DNA of 64,000 bases. Origin: Kordiimonas sp. SCSIO 12603. GTDB lineage: Bacteria > Pseudomonadota > Alphaproteobacteria > Sphingomonadales > Kordiimonadaceae. The stretch lies in contig NZ_CP073748.1 in assembly GCF_024398035.1 (NCBI RefSeq), forward strand, positions 1,835,520 to 1,899,519, given 5' to 3'. The position numbers and the translations under genes are program-made. The notes under the pieces were generated by a model, which was not told the DNA's origin, did not search any database, and saw only the letters and a list, made by a program, of their open reading frames with translations. This document shows, one piece after another, positions 23,697-58,348 of the stretch (its first letter is position 1; each line of letters opens with the position of its first letter).

Positions 23697-23823
23697 TCCA
23701 AACACTTCCAAACATCTGGCTGCTTTAATTCTAAACTAAGGTGGCCCTCAATAAAGCCCGAACTCTGCTGTAGACTATGCGGCAGAGAACGGAAAACCTA
23801 TATCACGACAGTGAGGAATTCTT

Positions 23824-25365
23824 ATGTCTATGTTTTCAAAACGGTTTAAAAAAGCCGGGAAAACCGTAGTTGGTGCTGTGCTCGCAGCCAGCATGCTTTC
23901 ATCAGGCCAGGTACTAGCCGTTTCAAACCTTGATAAACTGGAGCAAAACCTGCGGCCTCGTTATACGGTTGGCTCAGAAATGCCTCGCTTTAATCTGGCT
24001 GAACGTATGAAGCATTACGGTGTGCCAGGTGTTGCGATTGCTATCATTAAAGATGGCAAACTTCATGAGGCAAAAGGTTTTGGCGTGCTGCAAGCCGGAA
24101 ATGATACGCCAGTGGATGGCGATACACTTTTCTCTGTCGGTTCTGTTAGTAAGGTGGTGACAGCAGCGCTTATTCACCGGATGCAGGATGAAGGAAAATT
24201 AAATGTTGATAGAGACGTCAATGATTTCCTGAAAACATGGAAGCTACCTGATGATCGGAAGTGGGATGATGGTAAAATTAACCTGCGTATGATCCTTTCT
24301 CACACGGCTGGCTTTAACGTTCACGGCTTTCCAGATTTCCTGCCGGGAGAAGAATTACCAACGGTTTATGATACACTGAACGGCACTGCGCCTGCACGCA
24401 CAGATGCGTTGAGGCAGGTCTATCAGCCGGGTAGCCGTTACCGTTATTCTGGCGGTGGTTATACGCTGGCTCAGCTTCTCGTATCAGATGTTTCCGATAA
24501 ATCTTTTGAAGATACTGCAAAGGGCACACTTTTGGCCCCACTAGGTATGAATAGAAGTAGTTTTGAAAACCCTCTGCCCGAAACTGTGCCCAATGTTGCG
24601 AAAGCGCATAACCGGAACGGCGAAGCGGTAGCGCTGCCAAGAGGATATGAAGCTATGCCGGAGATGGCAGCATCAGGTTTCTGGACAAGCGCGAATGAAC
24701 TTGGAACCTTAGTTGCTGCACTCATAGAGAGTTACCGAACCAATGAAGGTTTCCTTAAACAAGCAACAGCAGTGGACATGATGACAAAGGTTGCGACTTC
24801 TGTGCACGGAATGGGCCCGCGGCTGCAAGGTTCTGGTTTGAAACGGGTTTTCCATCATGGCGGCGCGAACGATAGTTATCGGGCCTGGATTGAAGGTAAT
24901 CTGGCAACTGGTGATGGTCTTGTTGTGCTCACCAACGGTTCCGGCGGCAACAATCTTTATGTAGAGATTAGAAATGCGGCTGCAGATACTTATGATTGGG
25001 TGATTAACGAACCTGTATTGATCCCAGAGATCAAACTACCAGAGGCCATGATGGCGAGCTATACAGGAAAGTTCAAACCATCTGAAGAATTCACCAAGTT
25101 ACACCGTGAAAACCTGATTGATTATTTTTATGATATGCCGCTCATTATCTCGGCAGAAAACGGGAAGTTAATGGTGGGGAGAGAAGGCTCAGACAGGAAA
25201 AGTGAACTTGTTCCAACCGCAGGTAACCGGTTTATGGTACCAGCTCTCAATGGCCGGATGGGGACTGCAGAGCTTATTTTCCATAGAGATGGCCATAAGA
25301 ATATAGTGGGGATGACACTTAGTAATGATGGGAAACGTTCTTACTACGATTATGTAAGCGAATAA
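23824..25365 (+). CDS. Secreted serine hydrolase, beta-lactamase/DD-peptidase family
   Basis: This 513-residue protein has a signal peptide (VVGAVLAASMLSSGQVLA). Active-site motifs are SVSK (Ser107, Lys110), YSG (Tyr208) and HHGG near residue 342. The YSGGG form resembles EstB/penicillin-binding esterases more than true AmpC, so the substrate could be an ester or D-peptide. A C-terminal lipocalin-like region of about 110 residues follows. GAGGA precedes the ATG. It lies 127 bp behind the M56/ankyrin gene on the same strand. It is therefore the second candidate effector of the BlaI/M56 module. Confidence 0.85.
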   Translation: MSMFSKRFKKAGKTVVGAVLAASMLSSGQVLAVSNLDKLEQNLRPRYTVGSEMPRFNLAERMKHYGVPGVAIAIIKDGKLHEAKGFGVLQAGNDTPVDGDTLFSVGSVSKVVTAALIHRMQDEGKLNVDRDVNDFLKTWKLPDDRKWDDGKINLRMILSHTAGFNVHGFPDFLPGEELPTVYDTLNGTAPARTDALRQVYQPGSRYRYSGGGYTLAQLLVSDVSDKSFEDTAKGTLLAPLGMNRSSFENPLPETVPNVAKAHNRNGEAVALPRGYEAMPEMAASGFWTSANELGTLVAALIESYRTNEGFLKQATAVDMMTKVATSVHGMGPRLQGSGLKRVFHHGGANDSYRAWIEGNLATGDGLVVLTNGSGGNNLYVEIRNAAADTYDWVINEPVLIPEIKLPEAMMASYTGKFKPSEEFTKLHRENLIDYFYDMPLIISAENGKLMVGREGSDRKSELVPTAGNRFMVPALNGRMGTAELIFHRDGHKNIVGMTLSNDGKRSYYDYVSE

Positions 25366-55336: not shown

Positions 55337-55684
55337 CAAATGATCCTCCGAAACTGTTCAAAATATTTCGAAACACGTGATTTGAGGCATGTTTCGTCAT
55401 TAAACAGCTTATTCAGAGGAGGGCGTTTGTCAGGTGATGTGTCTTCAGCTTACCGATGATGGTGAGTAATCTGTCGGACAGTGTTTATAGCGGCGCCTAA
55501 TTTCGCAGGTGTTTTATGTAGTGTATTACAGGTGTATGGAATCAGTCCAAATATTGGGTGTTTTAGGGGGTGTATAACACCTAGTAACACACCTATTACA
55601 CCTGCGTCTAAAAATACTTGAAAAATAAAATCTTTAAAAATCAATGCCTTAATTGTTTTTGGTGAAGTTTTTTGATATTGCCTC
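55337..55684. other. Intergenic region with GGTGT/ACACC cluster
   Basis: No gene is supported here. The AT-rich region carries a dense cluster of GGTGT/ACACC motifs (55504-55606, listed separately), and the promoter of the minus-strand small membrane protein must lie in it. Long minus-strand open frames through here lack codon support and overlap the leader of the GntR operon. Confidence 0.45.
55504..55606. promoter_or_regulatory. Cluster of GGTGT/ACACC half-sites
   Basis: The segment opens with CGCAGGTGT (55504-55512) and closes with its exact complement ACACCTGCG (55598-55606). Between them are GGTGT-like motifs at about 55531, 55557 and 55569 and CACC motifs at 55578 and 55590. One perfect dyad is GGTGT-ATA-ACACC (55569-55581). 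Two GGTG/CACC pairs are 17 bases apart. The same half-site recurs at the proposed GntR promoter, so these may be regulator binding sites. Confidence 0.45.
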
Positions 55685-55724
55685 TTGTCAAATGTGAGGT
55701 GGTGTTGTACATAACTAATACACC
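55685..55724 (+). promoter_or_regulatory. Promoter with GGTG-N16-CACC operator of the YtrA-type operon
   Basis: TTGTCA (55685-55690) and TACATA (55708-55713) with 17-bp spacing are a reasonable sigma70 promoter. GGTG (55701-55704), 16 bases, CACC (55721-55724) overlaps the -10 and start region. I recall GGTG-N16-CACC being reported for YtrA-subfamily GntR regulators in Xanthomonas; the spacing here is exact. Repression by the downstream GntR protein is therefore likely. Confidence 0.6.
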
Positions 55725-55778
55725 GGCACGATAAAACGCCCAAACAGAGACATAAGTCCACGGGAGTTAGCCAAGAGA

Positions 55779-55999
55779 AGCCCAAAGGCTCAGATGGTAT
55801 GCGAGGAAAAAGTGCTGGTAACGGGAACAGATAAAATATCGGCCCGGGAACGACAGCACTAATAACAAGAAAGACCACAAGGTCTCATACAGCGAGGAAA
55901 AAATTGGGGGAGCCAGAGATAAAAATAAAATCTGGCCCCCTGATCTTAAAAGTAAAAAAAAAGAGACACGACAGTTTAACAATAAGCCTGAAAACAGGC
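55779..55999 (+). promoter_or_regulatory. Structured mRNA leader of the GntR/ABC operon
   Basis: Five distinct hairpins lie between the promoter and the 43-residue ORF. They are AGCC-CAAA-GGCT (55779-55790), AGTGCTG (55811-55817) with CAGCACT (55854-55860), AGACC-ACAA-GGTCT (55872-55885), GGGG(A)GCCAGA with TCTGGCCCCC (55907-55940), and GCCTG-AAAA-CAGGC (55986-55999). GCGAGGA recurs at 55801, 55892 and 56020, the last being the ribosome-binding site of the small ORF. No known riboswitch class was recognised. Confidence 0.55.
55794..55862 (+). CDS. Possible 22-residue leader peptide
   Basis: An ATG at 55794 with AAAGG five bases upstream opens a 22-codon frame (MVCEEKVLVTGTDKISARERQH) ending TAA at 55862. 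Its second half overlaps the long-range stem at 55811-55860. It could be a leader peptide or chance; nothing beyond the start context supports it. Confidence 0.22.
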   Translation: MVCEEKVLVTGTDKISARERQH

Positions 56000-56034
56000 G
56001 CCGCCCAATGAGGCAAACAGCGAGGAGAATAAAA

Positions 56035-56166
56035 ATGACAACCCGCACTTATACATCAACAAAACGTATGGTTCGTCGTAGCCGCCGTGTTGCGCGTGCA
56101 ACTGCAAAGCTTGTGGCCCAGCCGCTCTTTGCCGGCAACGTTAATCTTCTTGCAACTTCTGCGTAA
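56035..56166 (+). CDS. 43-residue arginine-rich small protein at head of GntR/ABC operon
   Basis: An ORF from ATG 56035 to TAA 56166 has GAGGAG eight bases upstream. It encodes an arginine/threonine-rich N-terminal half (MTTRTYTSTKRMVRRSRRVA) and a more neutral C-terminal half (RATAKLVAQPLFAGNVNLLATSA). No family is recognised. It lies 14 bp before the GntR start, consistent with co-transcription. An in-frame ATG at 56008 could add nine residues and would overlap the stop of an upstream TTG frame. It might be a regulator-binding or RNA-binding peptide, as pure inference. Confidence 0.6.
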   Translation: MTTRTYTSTKRMVRRSRRVARATAKLVAQPLFAGNVNLLATSA

Positions 56167-56180
56167 GAAAGGGAGTTTTT

Positions 56181-56540
56181 ATGACGCCGGATTGGAGCGA
56201 TGATCAGCCAATTTACCGGCAACTGAAGGACAAAGTGGTGACAGCCATTATGGAAGGTAATCTCCCTGAAGGAGAGGCACTTCCATCAGTAAGAAATGTC
56301 GCTGTGGATTTACAGATTAATCCTATCACTGCATCAAAAGCCTATCAGGAGCTAGTAATGGACGGACTTGTTGAAAAACGACGCGGACTGGGCATGTTCG
56401 TGATCGAAGGAGCTCGGGAAAAGCTGCTTGAAGCAGAACGAGCTAAGTTTATTGAAGAAGAGTGGCCACGGGTTCTAGAAACAATTCGTCGGCTTGGTTT
56501 TGAACCGGAAGACCTGCTTAAAAGCGGGCTTGCCAACTAG
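56181..56540 (+). CDS. GntR-family regulator, YtrA subfamily
   Basis: This 119-residue protein has the short YtrA layout: a winged HTH (DQPIYRQLKDKVVTAIMEGNLPEGEALPSVRNVAVDLQINPITASKAYQEL) followed by a brief helical tail and no large effector domain. YtrA-type regulators control adjacent ABC transporter genes and respond to cell-envelope stress or antibiotics. A GGGAG site lies before the ATG and the gene lies 12 bp before the ABC ATPase. The upstream GGTG-N16-CACC element fits its presumed operator. Confidence 0.88.
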   Translation: MTPDWSDDQPIYRQLKDKVVTAIMEGNLPEGEALPSVRNVAVDLQINPITASKAYQELVMDGLVEKRRGLGMFVIEGAREKLLEAERAKFIEEEWPRVLETIRRLGFEPEDLLKSGLAN

Positions 56541-56552
56541 GAGGGGGCCAAT

Positions 56553-57413
56553 ATGACAGAATATGTTGTTGAAGCACGAGGGCTTTCAAAGTCATTCGGC
56601 AAATTCCAGGCCCTTAAACCAGTTGATTTCAATATCCCACTTGGCAGAATTGTTGGTGTGATTGGCGCAAATGGCGCTGGGAAAACCACAATGCTGAACG
56701 CGGTTCTCGGTCTTACCACATATGATGGTAGCCTGAGTGTGATGGGCCATGACCCAGCGAAAGAACGCGACGCATTGATGCAGGATGTTTGCTTCATCGC
56801 AGACGTTGCAACACTGCCGAAATGGATGAAGGTTTCAGACGTTCTTGATTATGTTGAACGTGTTCACCCGAAATTTGATCGCTCAAAAGCGCTTGATTTC
56901 CTAAGCCGCACGAAAGTACCGATGGACCGTAAGGTGCGTGCTCTTTCAAAAGGTATGACGGTACAGGTGCATCTAGCGGTGGTGATGGCGATTGATGCCA
57001 AGCTGCTTGTACTGGATGAGCCAACACTCGGCCTGGATATTATTTTCCGGAAGCAATTCTACCAAAGCCTTCTTGAAGAATATTTTGATGAAGACCGCAC
57101 AGTGGTTATTACAACGCACCAAGTGGAAGAAATCGAACATATCCTCACAGATGTGATTTTCATCAAGGATGGCGGTATCGTTCTACAGAGCGATATGGAA
57201 GAGCTTTCTGAGCAGTTTGTTGAAGTGATGGTGGAGCCGGGTAAAGAAGAAGAAGCGACAGCTCTTGGCCCAATCCGCGAAAGTTCAACGTTCGGTAAGA
57301 AAACTTGCGTGTATAAAAATGCTGATCACGATGCGCTGGCTAAATTGGGTGAAACGCGCCGCCTAGGCCTGGCTGACATTTTCGTGGCGACCATGACAGG
57401 AGGTGGGCAATGA
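56553..57413 (+). CDS. ABC transporter ATP-binding protein of YtrA-type operon
   Basis: This 286-residue ATPase has Walker A GANGAGKTT, Walker B LLVLDEPTLGLD, the signature-equivalent ALSKGMTVQVHLAVVMA and the switch TTHQ. The second half carries extra residues similar to the YtrB/CcmA group. The LSKGM sequence replaces the canonical LSGGQ. It overlaps the permease start by four bases (ATGA). A role as drug or peptide exporter under YtrA control is likely. The GGAGGG site is strong. Confidence 0.87.
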   Translation: MTEYVVEARGLSKSFGKFQALKPVDFNIPLGRIVGVIGANGAGKTTMLNAVLGLTTYDGSLSVMGHDPAKERDALMQDVCFIADVATLPKWMKVSDVLDYVERVHPKFDRSKALDFLSRTKVPMDRKVRALSKGMTVQVHLAVVMAIDAKLLVLDEPTLGLDIIFRKQFYQSLLEEYFDEDRTVVITTHQVEEIEHILTDVIFIKDGGIVLQSDMEELSEQFVEVMVEPGKEEEATALGPIRESSTFGKKTCVYKNADHDALAKLGETRRLGLADIFVATMTGGGQ

Positions 57414-58348
57414 AAACCTTTCAGGCCCTGATTAAAAGGGAAATCTTAGACGGCAAAAATGGATACATATGGGCGCCAGTGGTGCTTGCAGGTATCACTG
57501 TGCTGCTCTTGTTCCTTTCCGTTCTTGGTTTTGGCAACATGATCGAAATTCATGGTATGGAAAGACACGATATCCAGAATTTTGGTGATGCGCTTACACG
57601 TTTGGCAGAAAAAGAGCCTGCAGAGATTAGTGCCGCAATGACCTTTGGATACTGGAGCATGGGTTCCCTTCCATGGATCGCATTCCCGTTCGTTGTGTTC
57701 TTCTCTTTGTTGAGTAGCCTATATGAAGAACGCCGTGACCGTTCGATCTTGTTCTGGAAGTCTATGCCAGTTGCGGATTGGCAAGAAGTTCTGGCGAAGC
57801 TTTTTGTGCCGGTTGTGATTGTTCCAATCATCTTTATGGCTGTTGTTATTGTTTCCCAGCTTGCAATTGCCTTTTTCTTAACCTTCGTGGTTCTGTTTCA
57901 AGGTGGTCCTATCCTTGAATTATGGCCGCTAGGTTCGATGATCGGCACATGGTTCTCTGGCCTTGGTATGTACTATGTATATGCGCTATGGGCACTGCCG
58001 ATGCTGGCTTGGGTATTGTTGGTATCATCATTCGCGAACCGTTTGCCTTTCCTTTGGGCGGCACTTGTACCAGCGGTGATGGCGGCAGTAGAGGGTATCT
58101 TCTTCGAAACAACAGGCGTGTTGCGCTGGATCGCTATCCATGTTGGTGGTTGGACAGAGTTTGCATATCGTGATTATGCAAATACGATTAGCATCGACGG
58201 CCCAAGAGAGTTGCTTGATTTTGTAGTTGGTGGTCCTCAATTCGATGCTCTTTCATATAGCTTGGGCAGTGGCGAATTTTGGGCGGGGATTGTAGTTGCG
58301 GCAGCTTTTGTTTTCGCTGCAATCGAAATCCGGAAGAAAGCAGTTTGA
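57410..58348 (+). CDS. ABC transporter permease of YtrA-type operon
   Basis: This 312-residue integral membrane protein has about six TM segments (approximately 25-45, 80-102, 135-165, 177-200, 207-228 and 286-305). It resembles ABC-2/YtrC-type permeases, with SSLYEERRDRSILFWKSMPVADWQEVLAKL characteristic of the family. It pairs with the upstream ATPase. A T-rich terminator lies about 28 bp after the stop. The substrate is unknown; envelope or antibiotic-related export is plausible. Confidence 0.83.
   Translation: MKTFQALIKREILDGKNGYIWAPVVLAGITVLLLFLSVLGFGNMIEIHGMERHDIQNFGDALTRLAEKEPAEISAAMTFGYWSMGSLPWIAFPFVVFFSLLSSLYEERRDRSILFWKSMPVADWQEVLAKLFVPVVIVPIIFMAVVIVSQLAIAFFLTFVVLFQGGPILELWPLGSMIGTWFSGLGMYYVYALWALPMLAWVLLVSSFANRLPFLWAALVPAVMAAVEGIFFETTGVLRWIAIHVGGWTEFAYRDYANTISIDGPRELLDFVVGGPQFDALSYSLGSGEFWAGIVVAAAFVFAAIEIRKKAV

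Follow-up and report, generated by a model that had tools for sequence, protein, structure and literature searches.

The leader of the ytr operon in Kordiimonas sp. SCSIO 12603 repeats a Shine-Dalgarno-like word, GCGAGGA, three times among five hairpins, which raises the question of what the repeats do. A first-pass annotation of the window (the whole 64,000-nt stretch of DNA analysed here, from a genome that forms one contig of 3.85 Mb) had proposed a cis-regulatory RNA with cascade-like translation of tiny ORFs. Comparison with relatives points to another answer for the repeats: the leader is predicted to be, and in our judgement probably is, a landing array with several sites for a conserved sRNA that acts in trans and would repress the operon.

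The ytr operon and its leader

The operon and the elements preceding it are as follows (window coordinates).

55685-55690 and 55708-55713, plus strand: promoter-like -35 (TTGTCA) and -10 (TACATA) with a 17-nt spacer, read from the sequence as a putative promoter
55701-55724, plus strand: palindrome GGTGT...ACACC (GGTGTTGTACATAACTAATACACC), overlapping the -10
55720-56034, plus strand: structured leader RNA of about 315 nt with a presumed start; folding z -5.9
56035-56166, plus strand: 43-residue Arg-rich ORF with no credible Pfam or NCBIfam match
56181-56540, plus strand: ytrA, GntR-family regulator (PF00392, E 2.9e-12)
56553-57413, plus strand: ABC transporter ATPase (PF00005)
57410-58348, plus strand: probable ABC permease, assigned from its position; no Pfam match at E 0.001

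A GntR domain encoded in one operon with an ABC transporter, as found here, is the habit described for the YtrA subfamily in the excerpted text of PMC4494728. The YtrA protein of this locus is 100% identical to that of Kordiimonas laminariae. The promoter-like pair and the palindrome together would place the transcript start near 55720. A GGTGT...ACACC palindrome also lies just upstream of most relatives' leaders, and its position, symmetry and conservation make the copy at 55701-55724 a probable YtrA operator. Several further GGTGT...ACACC-like repeats occur at 55507-55606, 100-200 bp upstream of this operator, and several relatives likewise have operator-like matches 130-150 bp further upstream. 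Unlike these repeats, operators of the YtrA subfamily are usually single sites, as far as the excerpted text describes them (PMC4494728).

The small ORF between the leader and ytrA has the consensus MxTRxYxxxKRxxRRSRRxAR over 19 aligned sequences, its own included. Scans at E values up to 10 returned no credible Pfam or NCBIfam match; across the 19 members, DUF1127 was not matched, and the sole Pfam match was to SafA in one member (E 0.15). A resemblance to ribosomal protein bL34, considered for this ORF, was absent from the Pfam and NCBIfam scans at the same limit and was dropped. One relative (L026) has two tandem copies of the ORF between leader and ytrA, each after a GACAGCGA-type box. Family f8 (L076, L078, L084-L090) has a different recurring small ORF (M-F/L-NLY...) between operator and ytrA, and neither boxes nor sRNA were found at those loci.

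Within the leader, hairpins (hp1 to hp5) and two kinds of box, A and B, are arranged as follows.

55779-55790, plus strand: hp1, 4-nt loop
55801-55807, plus strand: box A1 (GCGAGGA), antisense to UCCUCGC of the predicted sRNA
55811-55860, plus strand: hp2, containing box B1
55841-55857, plus strand: box B1 (GGCCCG-GGA-ACGACAGC), antisense to parts of GCUGUCGU-n-CGGGCC of the predicted sRNA
55872-55885, plus strand: hp3, 4-nt loop, between B1 and A2
55889-55898, plus strand: box A2 (ACAGCGAGGA)
55906-55940, plus strand: hp4, GC-rich; 5/9 modelled pairs changed on both sides among relatives
55967-55974, plus strand: box B2 (CACGACAG)
55986-55999, plus strand: hp5, 4-nt loop
56017-56026, plus strand: box A3 (ACAGCGAGGA), overlapping the Shine-Dalgarno of the Arg-rich ORF

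The five-hairpin leader is real, structured and conserved. Its minimum free energy is -81.9 kcal/mol, against a mean of -55.8 kcal/mol for shuffled sequences (0/100 shuffles as good). In a set of 30 ytr leaders, of which 28 (own included) come from the organism's own family (f1) and 2 from family f6, z lies below -2 in 29 and below -3 in 26, with a mean of -4.0. The structured cis leader of about 315 nt that the first-pass annotation described thus holds, with tetraloops on three of its five hairpins (hp1, hp3 and hp5). Homologous leaders can be retrieved with a covariance model of hp3-box-hp4 (R1), which matches 16/19 genomes of the genus and, beyond it, one genome of another genus (weakly); there is also one extra place in genome G001. 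One YtrA locus outside the main collection (L143) has a related hairpin-box-hairpin layout with altered boxes and scores 20.2 bits with R1.

The compensatory changes that the annotation had named as a check are present. Among 18 distinct sequences, 7/14 pairs changed on both sides, five of them in hp4. The covariation score of 0.248 was reached by none of 500 shuffles (0.130), and slid structures gave no more than 0.120, although sliding is a control that favours the modelled structure, which was derived from part of the tested sequences; a measure of further pair types was not above shuffles (235/500). Paired alignment cells make up 72% in hp3 and 93% in hp4. MAFFT misregisters hp3 in the window and some relatives, so that hp3 receives no fair covariation test and hp4 carries the signal. 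The leader also fits no named class, as had been supposed: at Rfam gathering scores it matches no family (the whole window yields only three tRNAs), and at E values up to 5 it has two weak matches to unrelated families.

Recurring boxes and a predicted small RNA

The word GCGAGGA stands at 55801-55807, 55892-55898 and 56020-56026, and GTG (55812), TTG (55904) and ATG (56035) lie 4, 5 and 8 nt downstream of the respective copies. A 22-codon frame (55794-55862) and a TTG frame (55904-56011) are also present, as annotated. These starts after all three copies invite the view that ribosomes bind at the boxes and translate tiny ORFs in a cascade. Across the 30 leaders, with near-identical ones counted separately, a start lies 3-11 nt downstream of 13/48 non-final A boxes, compared with a background of 13%. 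This is a modest excess; 35 of the 48 lack a start, and the start type varies (ATG, GTG, TTG). A second recurring box, ACGACAG, alternates with GCGAGGA at 55850-55856 and 55968-55974; ribosome binding leaves it unexplained, along with the GGCCCGAG part that often precedes it. Cascade translation is therefore highly improbable, and antisense part-sites for a conserved predicted sRNA account for the boxes better than ribosome sites of tiny ORFs do.

ACGACAG is present beside GCGAGGA in most of the 30 leaders. The order A-B-A-B-A was found by word search in 12/30, four of them with a doubled B, and in 23/30 the last A box lies 7-9 nt 5' of the ATG of the Arg-rich ORF. Boxes are placed mostly in linkers between hairpins, often with a hairpin between B and the next A, and are somewhat more often unpaired than average (probability 0.67 for A and 0.76 for B, against 0.58 overall). 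Most leaders of families f2, f6 and f7 are shorter, and several of them have the site within the start of the Arg-rich ORF or immediately 5' of it.

One 26-nt sequence, GGCCCGAGTCACGACAGCGAGGATAG, contains both box A (AGCGAGGA) and box B (GGCCCGAGU-n-ACGACAG), and some outlying members (L012, L026, L030, L031) carry parts fused as ACGACAGCGAGGA. The extra R1 match in G001 led to a search for this fused 13-mer, which occurs in 29/29 genomes of the own family and 72/147 genomes of the order. When 25 of the own-family 13-mer loci were fetched, 20 of them shared one recurring intergenic location, and the remaining five lie in coding sequence, are RBS sites or are unclear. On its opposite strand, the recurring place has two hairpins, the 13-mer antisense, an intrinsic terminator and TTGACC upstream, a layout that we read as a predicted sRNA gene. 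The 26-nt sequence is the reverse complement of a conserved stretch of this sRNA 5' of its terminator.

G000:C1:1300088-1300199, minus strand: predicted sRNA of about 110 nt, in the own genome outside the window

The predicted sRNA comprises two covarying hairpins, an invariant AUCCUCGCUGUCGUGACUC stretch and the intrinsic terminator. The alignment of hairpins 1 and 2 has 13 pairs with kept double changes. A ATCCTCGCTGTCGTGACTCGGGCCGGGT block is invariant across 16 aligned sequences, of which only the flanking part counts as unselected evidence because the sequences were collected by the 13-mer. A covariance model of the sRNA (R2) matches 47/147 genomes of the order, and 45 of these belong to the own family and three related ones, which together count 46 genomes (f1 29/29, f2 8/8, f6 6/7, f7 2/2); the weak remainder lies in 2/101 other order genomes, one in f5 and one in f8. 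TCCTCGCTGTCGTGA is present in every one of 20 stretches retrieved from families f2, f6 and f7 and from two f1 genomes. Over a 385-genome sample of the class, with filters that lose weak matches, R2 found the own genome and three weak places, which were taken as chance since they have neither CTGTCGTGA nor GTCGTGACTC. At gathering scores no Rfam family matched any of six loci examined, five of which hold the sRNA (L221 does not). SorY (RF02651) and SorX (RF02784), which are among the best Rfam scores for the sRNA locus, reached 22.6 bits against a gathering score of 111 and 16.3 bits against 46.6, and suhB/mmgR (RF00519) reached 12.3 bits against a threshold of 41; membership in all three was rejected.

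The genomic setting of the sRNA was scanned by motif, a search that misses some genes, such as the LysR gene of L210. An OxyR-like LysR gene lies downstream in the same orientation in 12/20 loci, and a T2SSF/tadC-like gene lies upstream in 9/20. The best match of the LysR protein at L216 is OxyR, at 241.5 bits against a cut-off of 329 that it does not reach; the upstream neighbour there matches PF00482. In two loci of K. laminariae type, AhpD and peroxiredoxin genes take the downstream position. An oxidative-stress role of the sRNA is a lead, not a result. At L212 (G022), tandem repeats of a terminator-like segment follow the sRNA terminator.

Predicted pairing between leader and small RNA

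Boxes and sRNA tend to occur together. An antisense segment of at least 8 nt is present in 41/43 R2-positive ytr loci and in 3/27 R2-negative ones, counts that are not independent since the data follow clades. They cover 500 nt before ytrA at 70 loci, including L094 with only 27 nt upstream. A reversed-sequence control was invalid here because CGACAGC reads the same backwards (it matched in 31/43 sRNA-positive loci). One R2-negative draft genome with a segment (G058, f6) has the 13-mer in three places, none resembling the sRNA. Nine further YtrA loci, L143 among them, have no antisense segment and no R2 match in their records, the latter silence being weak as that search was run without a positive genome.

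Complementarity exceeds its controls about tenfold. The 30 leaders hold 145 exact antisense segments of at least 7 nt (mean 4.8 per leader), whereas dinucleotide shuffling of the leaders leaves a mean of 0.47 and shuffling of the seed one of 0.58. Such matches might stem from common descent alone: the leader module could be related to the sRNA locus, read on its opposite strand, without any interaction, and hp2 with box B in several relatives does resemble the reverse complement of the sRNA terminator and seed. Against this, boxes are kept while hairpin stems diverge and covary, and they are mostly absent where the sRNA was not found; ancestry without interaction is improbable. A protein might instead bind the boxes, either a GGA-binding protein of CsrA type or the Arg-rich product itself. 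CsrA prefers an AGGA-type sequence, which GAGGA contains, and the Arg-rich product is rich in RRSRR-type motifs, but the conserved parts of the sRNA antisense include stretches without GGA, which leaves recognition by a protein about as improbable as bare ancestry.

Returning to sRNA pairing, co-folding of each whole leader with the sRNA of the same genome gave a mean gain of -25.4 kcal/mol, against -13.4 kcal/mol with the seed shuffled. All 15 seed shuffles were beaten in 26/27 pairs (the exception is L021); the pairs cover 27 of the 28 own-family leaders, L010 being left out with its sRNA at a contig end. In most of the B1/A2 duplexes displayed, the sRNA is predicted to pair both arms while hp3 stays folded; in L008 the A arm stays unpaired. 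Real seeds beat 20 shuffled seeds at 42/43 B-A sites, which shows only that the geometry works because the sites were chosen for carrying the words, and 31/43 sites qualified as bridged. Counting duplexes at -11 kcal/mol did not separate real seeds (7.5 sites per leader) from shuffles (5.5) or the reversed seed (7.3). By best energy in that analysis, 20/30 leaders beat all 40 shuffles, and in L002, L003 and L024 the real seed was outscored by the reversed one.

Many leader part-sites are only 7-9 nt long. In RNAalifold predictions, part of the sRNA seed self-pairs (4 pairs) and three columns just behind it pair with the 5' end. The GGGCC end of the match is itself part of the terminator stem, so that complete pairing would require all of these sRNA structures to open. 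Two features expected of an Hfq-type target are present, namely complementarity that extends along a conserved stretch of the sRNA and exceeds shuffled controls, and an A-type box near the ribosome-binding region. The genome also encodes Hfq (PF17209, 113.8 bits). Taken as modelled, pairing between leader and sRNA is likely.

The mechanism proposed here builds on the computed structure, conservation, complementarity, co-occurrence and predicted duplexes. Boxes A and B would represent the sRNA complement cut in two, and, given the hairpin frequently found between a B box and the A box after it, a single sRNA could span the two. With both RNAs transcribed, the sRNA, assisted by Hfq, would pair the B and A arms and leave the intervening hairpin as the third arm of the junction. 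At box A3 it would cover the Shine-Dalgarno and repress the Arg-rich ORF, and by coupling ytrA and the transporter would be repressed as well; repression is the assumed direction of regulation. By capturing sRNA, sites further upstream may make the response sharper. Control of transcription would fall to YtrA, and that of translation or decay to the sRNA. More tentatively, and with less than even probability, each hairpin-split site may be closed by the sRNA into a three-way junction, two or three such sites jointly acting as its stoichiometric sensor or as a sponge; with the sRNA gene beside an OxyR-like one, this would link oxidative stress to an envelope transporter.

A leader with many sites might chiefly titrate the sRNA, such that relief from YtrA would produce a multi-site RNA that draws the sRNA away from further mRNAs, for instance mRNAs that carry a site at their RBS. 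Each of the 28 own-family leaders has 2-8 antisense segments of at least 7 nt, and the pattern ACGACAGNGAGGA-N3-12-ATG gives 17 matches over 29 genomes against 2 for its reversed control; one of the 17 is the sRNA locus on its other strand (L262) and one lies in the window at 23805. Yet the genes with such RBS-type matches mostly differ from genome to genome, so that a broad conserved regulon is not shown, and most sRNA-bearing loci outside the own family have only 1-3 segments of at least 8 nt. In several of these loci the segments lie near or inside the ORF start, which argues for direct control. In 23 of the 30 leaders, the last A box holds the Shine-Dalgarno position of the Arg-rich ORF. 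Titration as the chief role is rather unlikely. Allowing up to two mismatches, the 13-mer matches the own genome 56 times and the reversed pattern does so 115 times; lacking enrichment, it gives no sign of a large regulon.

Two individual sites stand out. At 23805-23826 of the window, ACGACAGTGAGGA stands immediately ahead of a start codon, ATG at 23824; the protein encoded there has 513 residues and a Beta-lactamase-family domain (PF00144), and its mRNA is a candidate second target of the sRNA. In G001, at about 107-166 of L201 (minus strand), a hairpin, ACGACAGCGAGGA and a terminator-like hairpin follow the stop of a small HTH gene, as read by eye; the element is possibly a 3'-UTR decoy of the sRNA.

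Known systems and implications

The proposed landing of the sRNA on a repeated array has partial parallels. Titrating RNAs of the CsrB/RsmZ type carry repeated identical boxes among many hairpins; the ytr leader shares this plan, but its boxes are antisense to an sRNA. OxyS of Escherichia coli, whose gene lies next to oxyR, pairs with RBSs and binds fhlA at two sites. The likeness to OxyS drawn here is one of gene position, the predicted sRNA lying upstream of the OxyR-like gene, in the same orientation, in the 12 loci noted above.

The nearest described case, likened by description rather than sequence, is StsR of Rhodobacter sphaeroides, an alphaproteobacterial sRNA that pairs with the long UpsM/dcw 5' UTR (excerpts of PMC5089854, PMC8307010). 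There, too, an sRNA pairs with a long leader, that of the dcw operon for cell division and the cell wall. A difference from the ytr leader is that an sRNA arises from the dcw leader, which has a terminator, and the excerpts describe no split-site array (PMC5089854, PMC8307010). No description of the present leader or sRNA was recognised in the titles and abstract openings of open-access PMC literature.

If the proposed pairing is true, the known sRNAs would be joined by a family conserved across four alphaproteobacterial families, along with its recognisable partner. The mRNA leader would be a repeated, hairpin-split docking array rather than a single start-codon site, and the questions of multi-site stoichiometry and of sponge versus target would become approachable in one locus. 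Recurring Shine-Dalgarno-like words, moreover, could then be antisense words.
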